64,000 bases of DNA from Epibacterium sp. Ofav1-8 (GTDB lineage: Bacteria > Pseudomonadota > Alphaproteobacteria > Rhodobacterales > Rhodobacteraceae): NCBI RefSeq assembly GCF_022348185.1, contig NZ_JAKRFD010000003.1:372001-436000 (forward strand), read 5' to 3'. Numbering within the stretch: the stretch's first letter is position 1; each line of letters starts with the position of its first letter. Position numbers and translations under genes: made by a program. Positions 13,146 to 21,958 of this stretch are shown one piece after another. The notes below the pieces were generated by a model. The model worked only from the letters and a program-made list of their open reading frames with translations, did not search any database and had not been told where the DNA came from.

Positions 13146-13643
13146 ATGAGTATGGAACGACCGATCAACCAGCTGGACCGCAAAGGGTTCATGACTGGTT
13201 ACCTTGACGCACTGGCGCTGGTGGAGAGACTTCACCGCCTGTTGCTTGACGTGATCAAGGATGAGTTTGAACGCGTGGGTGTCCTTGACATCAACGCGGT
13301 GCAGGCTCTGTTGCTGTTCAACATTGGCGACAATGAAGTGACCGCGGGCGAGTTGAAAACCCGTGGCTACTATCAGGGCAGCAACGTCAGCTACAACCTG
13401 AAGAAGCTGGTGGAGATGGGCTATATGCACCATCAGCGCTGCGAGATCGACCGCCGGTCGGTTCGTGTGCGCCTGACCCCCCGCGGCCGGGAAATCCGCG
13501 ACATCGTTGCGTCGCTGTTCTCTCGCCATGCGGAGGGCCTGGAGACCAAAGGCGTGATCAGCGCCGAGGGGATCGAGGACATCACCGGCTCCCTCAAACG
13601 CATGGAGCGGTACTGGTCTGACCAGATTCGCTACATCTATTAA
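13146..13643 (+). CDS. MarR-family winged-helix regulator (LdtR-like)
   Basis: 165 residues with a MarR winged helix: INAVQALLLFNIG, the recognition-helix region GYYQGSNVSYNLKKLVEMGY and the wing DRRSVRVRLTPRG. The sequence resembles the alphaproteobacterial LdtR branch known from Liberibacter, which controls envelope/stress genes. GGAGA precedes the ATG by about 8 bases. It is 79 bases downstream of sdhE and may be transcribed separately. Confidence 0.82.
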   Translation: MSMERPINQLDRKGFMTGYLDALALVERLHRLLLDVIKDEFERVGVLDINAVQALLLFNIGDNEVTAGELKTRGYYQGSNVSYNLKKLVEMGYMHHQRCEIDRRSVRVRLTPRGREIRDIVASLFSRHAEGLETKGVISAEGIEDITGSLKRMERYWSDQIRYIY

Positions 13644-14180
13644 GCGCCGTTTTTCGGGCTATGAGGTCCGGGAAGCACAAGACAGGATATGCATCGTCGC
13701 CCCCTATCGCCACAGCCGGCACCGCCGGAGATAGCCATCTAGACCGGACGACCTCGCAAGACTGTCAACCCTGTCCAGCCAGCCGCAGCCAGCGGTGAGA
13801 AGGACGAGACGGGGGCGGTTGCAGAAGCAACCGAGGCACTGCCGATGCCGGAGAACTCGGCACTCTGTTAGATTAGACACGTATCACGTTGCATCCCATG
13901 AGGTCGGGATCGCTGCGACGGTGACCTTTGGGCCACCCGAGCAGACGTTGCCGCCAGGGGGCTGCTGTTGCGGATCGATCATCCCGCATCGCGCCGGGAC
14001 CGATACCTGTGCGGATGTGTCCGGGAATGGGGGCAAGCCCCCGGAGCCCGGGTGCGCATAGGCTCCGACGGCGGGCACCATCGCAGGGCGGTTGGCGCAG
14101 ATGTGGTATGGCCTTTCAGGCTCCCCCGGTGCAGGCCCGTCCTGCGCCGGGCGCCTTGGGTTTGGCACTCTGCGTTGGGC
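13644..14180. other. Long intergenic stretch, no supported gene
   Basis: About 540 bases between the MarR gene and the tandem repeats. Short open frames on both strands lack start signals and look random. I compared it by eye with tmRNA, RNase P, SRP RNA and glycine or cobalamin riboswitch cores and saw none. Confidence 0.45.
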
Positions 14181-14260
14181 AACCTGTGATGAGTGGCCTG
14201 TGTTGAGTGGCCTGTGTTGAGTGGCCTGTGATGAGTGGCTTGTGATGCGTGGCCTGTGAT
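14181..14260. repeat. 14-bp tandem repeat, five units plus a partial
   Basis: Units GAGTGGCCTGTGTT / GAGTGGCCTGTGAT run at 14191, 14205, 14219, 14233 and 14247, preceded by a partial unit ending CCTGTGAT. Differences are one or two bases. The array lies downstream of gloA. Confidence 0.9.
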
Positions 14261-14293
14261 GCAGTCCCTTTGGCGTGCAGCGGAGCAGTAACG

Positions 14294-14323
14294 AAAAAAC
14301 CGCCCCCGAGCGTCGGGAGCGGT
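14294..14323 (-). terminator. Rho-independent terminator of gloA
   Basis: On the minus strand a stem ACCGCTCCCGA / TCGGGGGCGGT is followed by TTTTTT, 25 bases after the gloA stop. Confidence 0.8.
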
Positions 14324-14347
14324 TGCACGCGCGCAGCCGTCGATGGC

Positions 14348-14776
14348 TTACCAGTGGCCGGTGTTTTCCATGCTGGCCCAGGGCTCGGCGGGGGCCAGCG
14401 CCTCACCCGCCTGGAGCAACTCGATGGAGATATTGTCCGGAGAGCGCACAAACGCCATGCGCCCGTCGCGCGGCGGGCGATTGATGGTGACGCCATTGTC
14501 CATCAGATGCTGGCACATCTCGTAGATGTTATCGACCTCATAGGCGAGGTGGCCGAAGTGACGGCTGTCGGAGGGCAATGCGTCGTCGCCATCCCAGTTC
14601 CAGGTCAGTTCGATCGGGGCCTCTTCCTGACCGGGAGGCGCCATGAAGATCAGCGAGAACCGCCCGCCTTCGCTGTCGTGGCGGCGGGTCTCCTTGAGCC
14701 CCAGAAGCGCATAGAACGCCATGGATTTCTCCAGGTCCTTCACGCGGACCATGGTGTGCAGATACTTGAGCGGCAT
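14348..14776 (-). CDS. gloA: Lactoylglutathione lyase (glyoxalase I)
   Basis: 142-residue VOC-fold metalloenzyme that isomerises the methylglyoxal-glutathione hemithioacetal to S-lactoylglutathione. Seen: LKYLHTMVRVKDLEKS with the first metal His, FSLIFMAPPG, IELTWNWD with a metal Glu, HFGHLAYEVDNIY with the second His, and NISIELLQ with the last Glu. Ends with a short extension (PWASMENTGHW). An AAGGA site precedes the ATG at 14776. Detoxifies methylglyoxal in the cytoplasm. Confidence 0.92.
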   Translation of the reverse strand: MPLKYLHTMVRVKDLEKSMAFYALLGLKETRRHDSEGGRFSLIFMAPPGQEEAPIELTWNWDGDDALPSDSRHFGHLAYEVDNIYEMCQHLMDNGVTINRPPRDGRMAFVRSPDNISIELLQAGEALAPAEPWASMENTGHW

Positions 14777-14925
14777 GGGGATGTCCTTCTGTCCTGTGCC
14801 GGAGCACTCCGGCGTTGCCGCTCAACCTAAGCGCTGAAGCGCGAATGTCGAGGGCGCGCGGGTAAACTGCTTGGATCTCTTTCTGCGGCAGGCTATCACC
14901 GGAGGGCAAACAGGAGGCCCGCGCC

Positions 14926-15759
14926 ATGCAGCAGTATCACGACGCCTTGCAGCATATCCTTGACCACGGGGTGGAGACGACAGATCGCACCGGCACCGGC
15001 ACCCTGTCCTGTTTTGGCATGCAGCAGCGCTATGATCTGGCCGAGGGGTTTCCGCTGGTCACCACGAAAAAGCTGCACCTGCGCTCCATCATCCACGAAC
15101 TGCTGTGGTTCCTGTCCGGGGACACCAATATCACCTATCTGAAAGATAACGGTGTTTCGATCTGGGATGAATGGGCGGATGAAAACGGCGACCTCGGGCC
15201 GGTCTACGGGCATCAGTGGCGCAAGTTTCCCCGGCTGGAGCTGGCTGAGGGCACGCTGGGGGATGAGCCGCTCTATCGTGCGGGCACCGTGGACCAGATC
15301 GCCGATCTGGTGGAGATGATCCGCACCAGCCCCGACAGCCGCCGCCTGATCGTGACCGCCTGGAACCCGGGTGATGTGCCCGATATGGCGCTGCCGCCCT
15401 GTCATACCCTGTGGCAGGTGCGCGTGTTGGGGGGCAAGCTGCATCTGCAACTCTATCAGCGCTCGGCCGACATGTTCCTGGGCGTGCCGTTCAACATCGC
15501 CTCCTATGCGCTGCTGCTGCAGATGCTGGCGCATGTGACCGGCTATGAGGTCGGCACCTTTGTGCACACGATGGGCGACGCCCATATCTATTCCAACCAC
15601 ATGGATCAGGTGGCGCTGCAACTGTCGCGCCGCCCCAAGGCCCTGCCGAAGCTGCGCATCACGCGGGAGGTCTCCTCGATCTTCGATTTCAAATACGAGG
15701 ATTTCGAGGTCGTCGGCTATGCGCCCGATCCCACCATCAAGGCGCCGGTCGCGGTCTGA
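14926..15759 (+). CDS. thyA: Thymidylate synthase (ThyA)
   Basis: 277 residues. Methylates dUMP to dTMP using 5,10-methylenetetrahydrofolate, producing dihydrofolate. Seen: DRTGTGT near the N-terminus, [38 protein letters not shown] with the nucleophilic Cys, [18 protein letters not shown] and [15 protein letters not shown] lies ten bases before the ATG. The next gene, folA, regenerates tetrahydrofolate, the usual pairing. Confidence 0.96.
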
Positions 15760-15786
15760 CCGCATCGGCCAACTCACAGGCATGTC

Positions 15787-16269
15787 ATGATTACACTCAT
15801 CGTCGCCCGCGCCCGCAACGGGGCCATCGGCAAGGACAACGATATTCCCTGGCGCGCGCCGGAGGATCTGAAGGCGTTTCAGCGCGAGACCCTGGGCGGC
15901 GCCATCATCATGGGGCGCAACACCTGGGACAGCCTGCCGGTCAAACCATTGAAGAACCGGTTCAATATCGTGGTGTCCTCCGACCCCACGGTGGCGGAGA
16001 CGGTGGTGCCGTCGATTGCGGAGGCGGTGGCGCTGGCGCGCGCTGCGGGCTATGCGCGGATCTATGGTATCGGCGGGTCCGGGATCTATCGCGGCATGCT
16101 GCCCATGGCGGACCGGCTGATGATCACCGAGGTCGATCTGGACATCGAAGAGGCGGATGCCTTCTTCCCGGACTTCGATCAGGCGCATTGGCGGCAGGCA
16201 GCAAGCCTGCCGCTGCGCGAGGACGCGCCGGCCTGCGTGCTGCGGGAATACCTGCGCGCCACGGGGTGA
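15787..16269 (+). CDS. folA: Dihydrofolate reductase
   Basis: 160 residues; reduces dihydrofolate to tetrahydrofolate with NADPH. Seen: ARNGAIGKDNDIPWRAPEDLK with the substrate-binding acidic residue, IMGRNTWDSLP, and the NADPH-binding IYGIGGSGIYR. It starts 28 bases after thyA and completes the dTMP cycle; the two form an operon. Confidence 0.95.
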   Translation: MITLIVARARNGAIGKDNDIPWRAPEDLKAFQRETLGGAIIMGRNTWDSLPVKPLKNRFNIVVSSDPTVAETVVPSIAEAVALARAAGYARIYGIGGSGIYRGMLPMADRLMITEVDLDIEEADAFFPDFDQAHWRQAASLPLREDAPACVLREYLRATG

Positions 16270-16805: not shown

Positions 16806-17123
16806 ATGAAGCTCTATGGTCTGAAGACCTGCGATACGTGCCGTAAGGCGATGAAATCACTGCCAGATGCGGAGTTTGTCGATGTCCGTGTCAGCGGCGT
16901 TCCACAAGCGATTATTGAGCGGGCATTTGCTCAATTCCCGGATAAGTTGCTCAATACACGTTCAACCACATGGCGAAATCTGAGCGAGGAGGACCGGGCA
17001 AAACCGCCGTTGGCGCTGCTGGCGGAGCATCCGAGTCTGATGAAACGGCCGCTGATCGAGCAGGGCGACAACCTCTATCTTGGCTGGACGGCCGATGTAA
17101 AAACGGCGCTTGGGGTGGCCTGA
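16806..17123 (+). CDS. ArsC/Spx-family thioredoxin-fold protein (YffB-like)
   Basis: 105 residues with the arsenate reductase-like fold: LYGLKTCDTCRKA, where the first Cys is the family's reactive thiol, then LLNTRSTTWRNLS and HPSLMKRPLIEQGD. The short length and lack of arsenic genes nearby point to the YffB/Spx side, often a glutathione-dependent reductase, rather than true arsenate reductase. Divergent from cspA. Confidence 0.83.
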   Translation: MKLYGLKTCDTCRKAMKSLPDAEFVDVRVSGVPQAIIERAFAQFPDKLLNTRSTTWRNLSEEDRAKPPLALLAEHPSLMKRPLIEQGDNLYLGWTADVKTALGVA

Positions 17124-17144
17124 ACACGCGCCACGGATGGCACA

Positions 17145-17180
17145 AAAACGGCGCGCGCAGGGAGATCCGCGCGCGCCGTC
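17145..17180 (-). terminator. Terminator of the bufferin operon
   Basis: On the minus strand a stem ACGGCGCGCGCG / TGCGCGCGCCGT is followed by TTTTT, just past the DoxX gene stop. It closes the operon that begins at 19792. Confidence 0.8.
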
Positions 17181-17202
17181 ATGTAGGGGGTGCGGTGGTC
17201 GG

Positions 17203-17766
17203 TCAGGGGGCGACATCTCCGTGCCGGCGGCGCAGCAGCGCATCCAGCGACAGGGCGCCCGCGCCCTTGACCACCAGGACCAACAGGACAAAGACCCACA
17301 GCAGCCGCTGGTCCATGATGACACTGTCGGACGCGCGGTCGAACCAGGCGCCCAGCGTCTTGGCATCGGTGGCGCCGTGGCCATAGACATCGGTCAGCGA
17401 CTGCACCACCACAAAGCCGATCATGCCCAGGGCGGCCAGCCGGGTGGCCAGGCCCAGCACGATCAGCAGCGGCAGCAGGAATTCGGCGTAGGTTCCCGCC
17501 ATCACCACCAGCCAGTGAAACAGCCCGAGTTGCGAGACGTCATAGCCCGCGGCCTCCAGCTGTTTGGGGAAAATTTGGCTGTAGGCGCCGATGGATGGGG
17601 AAAACAGCCCCAGAATGCCATCGCCCAGCTTGGTGAGGCCGGAATTCCAGTAGTAGATCAGCAGAACAGCGGCAAAGGTGAAGCGGGCAAGCAGCGGCAT
17701 CAGCCAGTCGCCCGCGCGCTCGATCAGGTCGAAGACGGCGTTATGCAGAGAAATCAGGGCGTTCAT
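17203..17766 (-). CDS. DoxX-family membrane protein of bufferin operon
   Basis: 187 residues with four hydrophobic segments (about 25-45, 80-100, 108-130, 150-172). DoxX-like proteins are the usual last gene of bufferin (GigT-type) operons and may move electrons or thiol equivalents at the membrane. It begins eight bases after bufC stops, so co-translation is likely. Family assignment is secure; the molecular role is not known. Confidence 0.82.
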   Translation of the reverse strand: MNALISLHNAVFDLIERAGDWLMPLLARFTFAAVLLIYYWNSGLTKLGDGILGLFSPSIGAYSQIFPKQLEAAGYDVSQLGLFHWLVVMAGTYAEFLLPLLIVLGLATRLAALGMIGFVVVQSLTDVYGHGATDAKTLGAWFDRASDSVIMDQRLLWVFVLLVLVVKGAGALSLDALLRRRHGDVAP

Positions 17767-17774
17767 GAGAAGTC

Positions 17775-18521
17775 CTATTGCGAGAGGTCGGTGAGGGCCA
17801 AGCCCTCGATCAGAAGCGCCAGCGGGGCGCTGAGGTCGAAATCGGGAAAATCACTTGTGACGGCCTCGGTCGCGGTGCCGAGGGTCTCGCCTGCCTGAAG
17901 TAGGGCAATCCACGCGGCCCCGCCGGGGGGCAGGGGCTGCGGGAGGGGGTCGAATTCGGGTCGGGTGATCAGCACATCCTGCGCACCCGGCTGTGGCTTG
18001 GGCGCGTCTGCGCGGGTGTTGTAGGCCCAGATCGCGTGGATCGGCCAGGCAGAGCGCACGACCGTCATCGCAGGGGCAAAGCCGAGACGGCTGGACAGCA
18101 GCGTGTCAGGCGGCAGCGTGCCGAGGTGCTGCGCGTCAAGCGGCGTCGCGTCGGCGGCGTGGTAGCTGCGGCGCAGGGCCAGTTCCAGCCGCGCCACATC
18201 GCCGAGATAGCCGAGGTGAGAGAGCTGTTCGAGACCTTCCAGGAAATCGGGAAAGCTGTCGCCATAGTGCATCATCAGCGGCGACGTCGGCGGATGCGCG
18301 CGCAGATAGAGCGCGGCGAGACCGTCCATGTTTTCCTGGCCCAGCAGCTTGGCAATGACGGGAAATCCCTGGTGCAGCGCCTCCGTCAGGGAGACGGCCA
18401 CATTGTTGCGATAGACGCTGAAGCGCCGCCCGGCGGGCTGCTGCGCCCCATCCAGAAGACCGTCGGGCACCGGCAGGCGCGCATCGAGTATGGCGCGGGT
18501 GAACTGCTCCGCCCGTGACAT
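17775..18521 (-). CDS. bufC: DUF2063 partner protein of the MNIO enzyme (BufC-like)
   Basis: 248 residues. The N-terminal half is a DUF2063 domain (FSVYRNNVAVSLTEALHQGFPV and HYGDSFPDFLEGL), which in MNIO systems binds the precursor peptide leader and presents it to the oxidase. The C-terminal half is the variable winged-helix-like part. Its ATG overlaps the bufB TGA by one base (TGATG), so expression is coupled. GigB and MbnC are distant relatives. Confidence 0.87.
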   Translation of the reverse strand: MSRAEQFTRAILDARLPVPDGLLDGAQQPAGRRFSVYRNNVAVSLTEALHQGFPVIAKLLGQENMDGLAALYLRAHPPTSPLMMHYGDSFPDFLEGLEQLSHLGYLGDVARLELALRRSYHAADATPLDAQHLGTLPPDTLLSSRLGFAPAMTVVRSAWPIHAIWAYNTRADAPKPQPGAQDVLITRPEFDPLPQPLPPGGAAWIALLQAGETLGTATEAVTSDFPDFDLSAPLALLIEGLALTDLSQ

Positions 18522-19393
18522 CACGCGGCGACCTTCACGGCGTTCAAGGCGGCGGCGGCGCGGGCGGCCTCGGCCTCCAGAACCACCCAGTCGGGGACGT
18601 CGGTGTCCCATTCCACCAGGGTGGGCCGCGGGCCGGAGCGGGCCAGCGTATAGTCCAGCAGCGCCCAGACCGGATCGACCACCTCGGCGCCGTGGCTGTC
18701 GATCAACAGCGGGCGACCGTGGTCATCGGCGTCCTCGTCATGGCCGCCCAGATGGATTTCGCCCACCAGGTCAAGCGGGTAGGCATCGATGTAGTCCTGC
18801 GGGCGATAGCCGAGGTTGGTCGCAGAGACAAAGACGTTGTTGACGTCCAGCAGCAAGCCGCAGCCGGTGCGCCGGGCGATCTCGTGCAGGAAAGCGGGTT
18901 CTGCCCAGGTGCTTTCGGCAAAGGCGAGGTAGCTGGAGGGGTTCTCCAGCAGCATCTGGCGACCCAGGGTGTCCTGCACCTGGTCGATATGTGCGCAGAC
19001 CCGGGCGAGCGTGTCGTCGGTATAGGGCAGCGGCAGCAGGTCGTTGTAGAAATGGCTGTCGTGGGTGGACCAGGCGAGATGTTCGGAAAAACTGGCCGGG
19101 TTCAGCCAGTCGACAAGATGCTTGAGCCGCGCCAGATGCGCGGGATCAAGCGGGGCCTCGCCGCCGATGGAGAGGCCGACGCCATGTACGGAAATCGGGA
19201 AGTGTTGCGACAGGTGGCGCAGCTGTGCCAGCGGTCTGCCGCCGTCGCCCATGTAGTTCTCTGCATGGATTTCCAGCCATTCGACCGTCCCCGGCGCGTC
19301 CAGGATGGCCTGGAAATGCTGTGGCTTGTAGCCAACACCGGCTGCGTCGGGCAGGCGGTTCGAACGGGGAGAGCGGTCAGGGCGGTCAAACAT
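18521..19393 (-). CDS. bufB: DUF692 multinuclear non-heme iron oxidase (BufB-like)
   Basis: 290-residue TIM-barrel of the DUF692/MNIO family. Probable iron ligands are all present: His70 in VHGVGLS, Glu104-His105 in SEHLAWS, Glu150-Asn151 in LLENPSSY, Asp183 and Asn185 in LLDVNNVF, His214 and His218 in IHLGGHDE, and Asp232/His234 in IDSHG. Such enzymes oxidatively remodel Cys residues of ribosomally made peptides; bufferin enzymes convert Cys to thiooxazoles. The substrate is presumably the BufA-like protein 93 bases upstream. Family very sure, chemistry by analogy. Confidence 0.9.
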
Positions 19394-19486
19394 GGCAGAG
19401 CTTTCTCTGGTCGGTCTGGAATCCTGTCGGGTCGGGACGGGCGCAACATCGCCGATGCGCCCGTCGATGATGTCGGAGGCCGGTGC

Positions 19487-19792
19487 TTAGGCCGGCAGGT
19501 CGCGCTCCAGCGGCTCCAGCGAGCCCTGACGTTCGGAGCCATCCGCCATTGCGGGCAGGTCCATTTCGGTGCAGGTGCCCTTGTCCACCAGGGTCCAGGC
19601 GTTGCCCTGATAATCCACGGTGGAGGTGCCGGCACAGGTGGTGCCGGGACCTGCGGCGCAGTCATTCTGCCCGGCGAGCGAGACGCCATAGCATTTCTCC
19701 TTGGCCTGTGCGGCGGCCTGGGAGGTGGAGAGGGCGGTCAGTGCTGCGGCAACGGCGCCAGCAACGGCGAGGGTGTTCTTGGTGGTCGACAT
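19487..19792 (-). CDS. bufA: DUF2282 bufferin precursor (BufA-like)
   Basis: 101 residues. A Sec signal peptide (hydrophobic 8-26, cleavage likely after AAAQA, residue 30) is followed by a core with four Cys: Cys34 in EKCYGV, Cys45 in GQNDCAAG, Cys53 in TTCAGTS and Cys74 in KGTCTEM. This spacing is the hallmark of DUF2282/BufA1. Known relatives are modified on Cys by the MNIO enzyme, exported, and chelate copper. AGGAGG lies upstream of the ATG. The tail after residue 80 is acidic. First gene of the operon. Confidence 0.9.
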
Positions 19793-19964
19793 ACGCGTGT
19801 CCTCCTGAAGTGATGAGCGTCGTCTTTGATGACACGGACACCCTAACCGGGGAGGATGGCGAAAAGAAACTCACGAGGGCGTGCCTCACGCCTGCGTCAG
19901 TCAATGTCAGCAAAGCGTTGCCAGCAAGTCGCTGTCTTTACGGTATTTTGGCCTTTTGTAACAA

Positions 19965-19988
19965 AACGGCCCCCGATCGGGGGCCGTT
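19965..19988 (-). terminator. Terminator of thrS
   Basis: A perfect inverted repeat, arms AACGGCCCCCGA / TCGGGGGCCGTT, lies 24 bases past the thrS stop, followed on the minus strand by TT-GTTAC. It separates thrS from the bufferin operon on the same strand. Confidence 0.75.
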
Positions 19989-20011
19989 CGTTTCAGGACT
20001 GCGGGGAAATG

Positions 20012-21958
20012 TTACAGCAGGTCCGGCGGGGTCGCGGCGGTCGCCAGCTCCGCTGTAACATTTGCCAGGCTTTCGACCTTGGTCTGTTTCTCGCCGAGGC
20101 GGCGCACCGAAACCGTGCGCTCCTCGACCTCGCGGTGGCCGACGGCGAGAATGACCGGCACCTTGCCCACGGAGTGTTCGCGGACCTTGTAGTTGATCTT
20201 CTCGTTGCGGATGTCGGCCTCGGCCCGCACACCGGCGGCGCGCAGGGTTTCGACCACCTCGTTCACATAGTCATCGGCCTCCGAAGTGATCGAGGCGACA
20301 ACCACCTGACGCGGCGCCAGCCAGAACGGCAGCTTGCCGGCGTGTTCCTCGATCAGGATGCCGATGAACCGCTCGAAACTGCCCAGGGTGGCGCGGTGCA
20401 GCATGAAGGGGCGATGCTTGGCGCCGTCCTGGCCGATATAGGTCGCATCCAGCCGTTCCGGCAGGTTCGGGTCCACCTGAAGGGTGCCGCATTGCCAGTT
20501 CCGCCCGATCGCATCGGTCAGGGTGAATTCCAGTTTAGGGCCGTAGAATGCGCCTTCGCCTTCGAGGAGTTCGTAGTCATAGCCCGCGGCCTTGCAGGCA
20601 TCGCCCAGGGCCTTTTCCACAAAATCCCAGCTCTCGTCACTGCCGATGCGTTTTTCCGGCCGCGTGGAGAGTTTGATCGTCCAGTCGTGGAAGCCGAGGT
20701 CGGCATAGATCCTGGACAAGAACTCGATGAACCGGGCGGTTTCCGACTCGATCTGGTCTTCGGTGCAGAAGATGTGACCATCGTCCTGGGTGAACCCGCG
20801 TACGCGCATGATGCCATGCAGCGCCCCCGAGGGTTCGTAGCGCGCGCAGGAGCCGAATTCCGCCATGCGCAGCGGCAGGTCGCGATAGGATTTGAGACCC
20901 TGGTTGAACACCTGCACGTGGCAGGGGCAGTTCATCGGTTTCAGCGCGTTCACGGCCTTTTCGCGGGCGTGTTCTTCGTCGACCTCGACGATGAACATGT
21001 TCTCCTGGTATTTGTCCCAGTGACCCGAGGCCTCCCAAAGCTTGCGGTCCACCACCTGCGGGGTGTTGACCTCCACATAGCCGCCTTTGTCCTGCTGGCG
21101 ACGCATATAGTCCTGCAAGGTGGTGTAGACCCGCCAGCCGTTGGGGTGCCAGAACACCTGACCGGGGGCCTCTTCCTGCATGTGGAACAGGTTCATCTCG
21201 CGGCCCAGCTTGCGGTGGTCGCGCTTGGCGGCCTCTTCCAGCATGGTCAGATGCGCCTTGAGCTTTTCCTTGCCGGTGAAGGCGACGCCGTAGATGCGCT
21301 GCAGCATGGCGCGATCGCTGTCGCCGCGCCAATAGGCACCTGCGATCGACATCAGTTTGAACGCGTCGCCGGGCACCTGGCCGGTGTGCTGCAGGTGCGG
21401 GCCGCGGCAGAGATCCTGCCAGTCGCCGTGCCAATACATGCGCAAGGGCTCGTCGCCGGGAATGGCGTCGATCAGCTCGACCTTATAGGGCTCGTTGTTG
21501 TCGGTGTAATATTGCACCGCCTTGGCACGGTCCCAGACCTCGGTGGTCACCGGCTCGCGCTTGTTGATGATCTCTTTCATCTTCTTTTCGATGGTGCCGA
21601 GATCTTCGGGCGTGAACGGTTCGGCGCGGTCGAAATCGTAGTACCAGCCGTTCTCAATGACCGGGCCGATGGTGACCTTGGTGTCGGGCCAGATCTCCTG
21701 CACCGCGCGCGCCATGATATGGGCGAGGTCGTGGCGGATGAGCTCATTGGCCTGCGCCTCGTCCTTCATGGTGTGGATGGCGATGGCGGCATCCTTGGTC
21801 ACGGGCCATTGCAGGTCCCAGTGCTGACCGTCCACGGTGGCGGAAATGGCCTTTTTCGCAAGCGAGGTGGAGATGTCGGCGGCGACCTCAGCAGGGGTGA
21901 TGCCTGCGTCATAGGAACGCGCGTTGCCATCGGGGAATGTAAGGGAGACTTGGGCCAT
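20012..21958 (-). CDS. thrS: Threonyl-tRNA synthetase
   Basis: 648-residue class II synthetase charging tRNA-Thr. Domains in order: TGS (residues 1-62), the editing/SAD domain with [10 protein letters not shown], the catalytic core with [10 protein letters not shown] (zinc Cys), motif 2 [21 protein letters not shown] and motif 3 region [20 protein letters not shown], and the anticodon-binding domain from about 550. Start at 21958 has GGAGAG upstream. No riboswitch-like leader is evident. Confidence 0.97.

Follow-up and report, generated by a model that had tools for sequence, protein, structure and literature searches.

The 64,000-nucleotide stretch of DNA analysed here, referred to below as the window, comes from a Roseobacter-group bacterium and contains a four-gene locus, bufABCD, that is an intact, ordinary Buf1 bufferin cluster of that group. 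The less ordinary part of the locus is a conserved element upstream of bufA, which may act as a switch in its own right and is worth a test at the bench. The best explanation of the data, and one that we regard as highly probable, is a Buf1-type bufferin biosynthetic operon; its control is probably by an activator other than SigF/NrsF that would act through the five half-sites of this element. Bufferins are recently described copper-buffering peptides, and the element offers a practical entry point to the way in which marine members of the Roseobacter group turn on the bufferin pathway where the known NrsF control is missing.

Organization of the bufABCD operon

The genes of the operon and its terminator are as follows.

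19487..19792, minus strand: bufA, DUF2282 (Buf1) bufferin precursor, 101 aa (PF10048, 87.1 bits, cut-off 22.4)
18521..19393, minus strand: bufB, MNIO-family bufferin maturase, 290 aa (PF05114, MbnB_TglH_ChrH, 351.9 bits; NF050167)
17775..18521, minus strand: bufC, DUF2063 partner protein, 248 aa (PF09836, 89.2 bits)
17203..17766, minus strand: bufD, DoxX-family membrane protein, 187 aa (PF07681, 33.0 bits, cut-off 23.6)
17144..17180, minus strand: intrinsic terminator, hairpin 17180-17147 and T-run 17148-17144 (predicted fold)

The first-pass annotation, made from the DNA alone, had placed four minus-strand genes here; all are found where it put them, and their families, including the DUF2063 partner (89.2 bits) and the DoxX protein (33.0 bits), are confirmed by Pfam matches that exceed the curated cut-offs in every case. 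With NCBIfam, bufB passes the BufB model (378.4 bits versus a cut-off of 310), and no cut-off is reached by bufA, bufC or bufD. With 20.3 bits, the bufA product stays under the BufA2 cut-off of 60 and is not assigned to that model, and several of its named relatives are annotated as BufA1 family bufferin-type metallophores, while bufC and bufD remain under the cut-offs of the HvfC-like (46.7 bits, cut-off 142) and HvfX-like (27.7 bits, cut-off 80) models, respectively.

The tight linkage claimed for the genes holds for bufB and bufC, which share the one-base overlap (TGATG) already noticed at first reading, and for bufC and bufD, which are separated by 8 nt, but not for bufA and bufB, whose 93 nt gap is the loosest junction of the operon. 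That a single terminator closes the operon is borne out by a strong predicted hairpin after bufD (-32.6 kcal/mol, z -5.77, 0 of 200 shuffles equal or better). This hairpin (17180-17147) is absent from the list of a consensus terminator scanner, maybe because the T-run is partly paired in the predicted stem. A search for a consensus sigma-70 promoter found none.

The precursor and its proposed maturation

The cysteines of BufA, residues 34, 45, 53 and 74, lie in the four motifs described at first reading and match the family pattern; among 111 rows of relatives, four cysteines are present in 109 and five in 2. The N-terminus, inspected by eye, combines Lys5, a hydrophobic stretch and an AQA/K site, and is consistent with a putative Sec-type signal of approximately residues 1-30 (AQA/KEKC). 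An acidic tail had also been singled out as a feature to be compared with known members. The tail exists, comprising the 27 residues that follow Cys74 (75-101) with a net charge of -5, but it is not special. In 110 rows of relatives, the tail has 27 residues in 83, 28 in 11, fewer in 13 and more in 3, so that 94 rows carry 27-28 residues; it is net negative in 108, contains G[SA]L in 109 and has an end matching [DI][LVIQ]P[ASEQ] in 99. Shorter tails are seen both within and beyond the bacterial family. The idea of an unusual tail was accordingly rejected: the acidic tail is a trait of BufA relatives.

Also as expected at first reading, BufB retains the iron ligands of its family. The ligands of TglH are H71, H107, E151, D184, N187, H216, D229, H231 and E258 (PMC10880893), and their counterparts in the alignment with BufB are H70, H105, E150, D183, N186, H214, D232, H234 and E261, nine of nine being identical. 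In FonB the catalytic base is described as an Asp that precedes a Phe (PMC13097082); in our own reading of the 3bww alignment the corresponding position of BufB is Asp263, followed by Thr, within EWDTDVP, and the source describes the Phe site as not conserved in DUF2282-type enzymes (PMC13097082). On the HvfB model BufB scores 236 bits, below the cut-off of 360. The features that can be examined in sequence, namely the bufABC gene order with doxX, the cysteines, the ligands and the DUF2063 partner, thus support the reading as a Buf1 bufferin operon.

For the characterised Buf1 peptide, the central two cysteines are reported to be converted to thiooxazoles and the outer two to form a disulphide (PMC12452194), and thiooxazole chemistry by an MNIO enzyme with a DUF2063-type partner is described for oxazolin/captophorin clusters (PMC13097082). 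By homology, we infer that BufA would be synthesized with a Sec-type signal peptide, that BufB and its partner BufC would oxidise the central residues, Cys45 and Cys53, to thiooxazoles prior to export, that the outer pair, Cys34 and Cys74, would join in a disulphide, and that mature BufA would chelate excess copper in the periplasm, with BufD a putative accessory membrane protein. The organism thus probably produces a modified copper-binding peptide, and the operon would be expected to respond to copper. It is unlikely that the peptide is instead a modified metallophore or protectant directed mainly at gold, chromium, cadmium, sulphur or oxidative stress, with copper secondary. In Caulobacter, the bufferin operons entered the literature as chromium/cadmium genes dependent on SigF (PMC3511200), and the gold-induced 'gig' operons are given as bufferin clusters in a source in which DoxX suggests other stresses (PMC12452194). 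However, the characterised Buf1 is described as chelating both Cu(I) and Cu(II) and as enhancing growth in copper excess (PMC12452194), and the ArsC-like neighbour of the operon (16806-17123) is convergent with it, on the opposite strand.

Compared with the Buf1 operon of Caulobacter, CC3254-CC3257, the families and their order (DUF2282, DUF692, DUF2063 and DoxX) are the same here, including the Buf1 precursor family common to both, with a precursor of 101 aa versus 93 aa and a DoxX protein of 187 aa versus 150 aa (PMC3511200). The upstream element differs between the two. The Hvf system of Haemophilus and the fontiphorin system FonABC are described as likewise pairing an MNIO enzyme with a DUF2063-type partner (PMC13097082), whereas oxazolin/captophorin precursors carry EGKCG repeats and the precursor here is a DUF2282 protein with four cysteines.

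Distribution and neighbourhood

The bufferin operon is common in the family, and the present cluster adds an expected member. Across 61 genomes, including our own, DUF2282 is found in 40 and an MNIO gene in 42; within the genus, DUF2282 occurs in 17 of 18 genomes, again with our own included (the sole genome without it is 67% complete), and MNIO in all 18. Our own genome has one DUF2282 gene and one MNIO gene. A wider family sample contains DUF2282 in 99 of 139 genomes, and among 14 control genomes a DUF2282 match is seen in Caulobacter only. Two closely spaced DUF2282 genes are present at three places (L009, C18 of genome G024; C45 of G141; C12 of G060), and since a single MNIO gene was found in each of G024 and G060, one enzyme may serve two precursors.

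The named loci compared below are the best 80 of 524 matching bufA loci. By tblastn, bufB and bufC follow bufA in 79 of these best 80, and bufD follows it in 76; two of the gene losses (L059 and L099) fall at a contig edge. The closest named BufA among the matches listed is that of Phaeobacter sp. B1627 (91%). One locus titled Nocardioides marinus DP1N28-1 (L070) carries all four genes, and its bufA product shares 90% identity across 71 residues; the record seems to be of Roseobacter origin, either mislabelled or contaminated.

Clustering of the ORFs around bufA in the same best 80 of 524 loci, with inspection of the 45 most frequent clusters, showed the usual neighbours. Named by likeness to genes of the window, a thrS-like ORF is present in 74 of the 80 and an ArsC-like gene on the opposite strand in 67. 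In the window itself, thrS (19961-21934) lies directly upstream of the operon on the same strand, with its own hairpin near 19961-19992, and the ArsC/Spx-like gene (16806-17123) is convergent with bufD. Farther away, at 13146-16269, adjacent thymidylate synthase and dihydrofolate reductase genes are found on the plus strand, together with a MarR-like regulator (13146-13643).

A conserved element upstream of bufA

In relatives, the DNA that precedes bufA contains one conserved stretch between unconserved flanks. This element was missed at first reading and lies ahead of a -10-like box.

19869..19909, minus strand: conserved element, 41 bp, proposed operator (from relatives' upstream DNA, logo and genome scans)
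19909-19906 (TGAC), 19899-19896 (TGAC), 19889-19886 (GTGA), 19884-19881 (GCAC) and 19874-19871 (GTGA), followed by T at 19869, minus strand: half-sites of the element
19840..19846, minus strand: -10-like box TTAGGGT (consensus YTANNNT), proposed promoter (information peak at logo positions 53-59)

The element was scored by matches to a 19-position consensus, 15 or more being taken as good. Scores of 15 or more are obtained in 91 of 110 bufA upstream rows and 81 of 100 distinct rows, the remaining 19 distinct rows scoring poorly; the 110 rows hold 10 identical pairs, mostly one genome from two collections (our own genome among these), and L065 was left out because it lacks upstream DNA. None of 550 shuffled rows scores as high (best shuffle 14), and a looser spacing pattern is matched by 83 of 110 rows versus 1 of 5500 shuffles, with both sets of shuffles preserving base composition only. 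The four upstream rows from outside the family lack the element (scores 10-12). It is absent too (scores 10) from L056 (Paracoccus) and L074 (Yoonia), where bufABC are present and no bufD is found by tblastn.

The logo, built from the 63 sites remaining under 75% identity, has its information peaks at TNAC, TNAC, GTNA, NCAC and GTGA, then T, with half-site steps of 10, 10, 5 and 10 bp, and the -10-like YTANNNT follows approximately 25 bp past the last GTGA at a near-fixed distance, with two alternative registers. Conservation is lowest at the first half-site, which reads TNAC in 65 of 83 rows. In 6 of 83 rows, GTTA and TAAC replace GTGA and NCAC as half-sites three and four, which keeps their symmetry, but these six rows come from just four genomes of the genus and may reflect one event; a few other rows break the symmetry (e.g. 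GTGA with TGAC or TAAC).

The element is also specific in its genomic position. Each of the 17 near-complete genomes of the genus has a single exact copy, immediately ahead of bufA; none was found in the 67%-complete genome, and a reversed-pattern control gives 2 matches in the 18 genomes. In the family sample there are 43 exact matches in 41 of 139 genomes (reversed control 1), of which 39 precede a same-strand DUF2282 domain by 155-201 bp. DUF2282 itself occurs in 99 of the 139 genomes, although at least 41 genomes should be counted as having the element, because the exact pattern is strict. The four matches away from bufA are in G018, G127, G022 and G158, and two such loci that were fetched (L160 and L180) contain no buf gene. 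In a class sample, a strict form is present in 4 of 337 genomes, three of them among the 5 that belong to the family and one among the 332 that do not; the reversed control of the exact element gives 6 matches in the 337. The outside match is no more than control, and no buf gene lies beside it. In a looser scan of our own genome, CGTGANNCACNNNNNCGTGA has 1 exact and 19 one-mismatch places versus 3 for the reversed control. With no second exact copy in this genome, there is no regulon to support a metal regulator.

Control of the operon

The layout of the upstream DNA suggests that the element is an operator, activating in effect, for a regulator that is possibly OmpR/CopR-like. An activator is proposed because the element lies just upstream of the would-be -35 box: a regulator other than SigF/NrsF would probably bind the five half-sites, which end just upstream of the -35 region.

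That the element is instead an RNA structure, such as an attenuator or leader, appears improbable. In its favour, the third and fourth half-sites covary (GTTA with TAAC in 6 of 83 rows), and the consensus scanner listed part of the element (19890-19872) as terminator-like, but the predicted fold of the 81-nt stretch is no more stable than those of its shuffles, 68 of 200 of which do as well (z -0.37), Rfam gives no family at its cut-off and only one chance-level match, inside bufB, and three of the four half-site steps are 10 bp. On folding and Rfam, the element as a terminator or RNA was rejected, and if the -10-like box is the promoter, the element is not transcribed because it lies upstream of that box. 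Less probable still, and indeed very unlikely, is control by a SigF-type ECF sigma factor encoded elsewhere and working without NrsF. SigF, with its negative regulator NrsF, is reported to control both Caulobacter bufferin operons through GTAACC-N16-CGAA (PMC3511200), and 5 of 61 genomes have NrsF at a distance of about 1 kb or less from bufA. However, a search that recovered NrsF from the Caulobacter control found it in none of the 18 genomes of the genus, our own included. Where NrsF sits beside bufA, the upstream DNA was read in 3 of the 5 genomes and lacks the element (scores 11-13); for the other 2, a genome scan gives no exact match, which is weak evidence because the pattern is strict. 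Conversely, NrsF is found in 0 of 22 genomes that carry the exact element before bufA, although the independent events are few because 17 of the 22 belong to one genus.

For the five half-sites, published copper boxes are the closest comparison. The printed CopR/CusR sites include TGACA-N4-TGTCA and CTGACA-N5-GTAAT, and the half-sites and TNAC-N6-GTNA spacing of the element equal those of the published boxes (PMC12428095, PMC11195947), as would be fitting for an operon that deals with copper. Several half-sites in a row are also described ahead of copper-response promoters in P. putida, as is found here (PMC12428095, PMC11195947). Unlike those boxes, the element comprises five half-sites, spaced by 10, 10, 5 and 10 bp. 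Among the 40 of 47 candidates scored in our own genome, the highest score on TIGR01387, the CopR/CusR model, is 170.3 bits against a cut-off of 279.2, so a CopR/CusR regulator in this genome is not supported. The cut-off is passed in 0 of 61 genomes and in 1 of 14 control genomes. With no regulator of cut-off grade, the resemblance to copper boxes may be superficial, and the binding protein may be some other regulator, of the OmpR type or from a different family.

Next door, no regulator is common to most of the best 80 of 524 named loci, and a search of the fetched bufA loci with an OmpR-type query gave no response regulator. We would suggest tentatively, and with somewhat more doubt than conviction, that members of the Roseobacter family switch the bufferin operon through a dedicated regulator and a five-half-site element present in a single exact copy, a second regime that replaces SigF/NrsF and whose regulator falls outside the recognised copper-regulator clades. 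Among the papers listed in a literature search, none deals with bufferin control in Roseobacters, although one may still exist.

Two further observations concern candidate regulators. Ten of the best 80 of 524 named loci (L062, 84-773, and nine others) have, on the far side of thrS, an ORF that resembles an ArsR-type regulator by eye. Four genomes of the genus (G004, G005, G011 and G016) contain a response regulator that is nearer to CopR/CusR than the top match in any of the others, at approximately 240-251 bits and below the cut-off; the one in G005 (L156) adjoins a histidine kinase and a protease that is DegP-like by eye.
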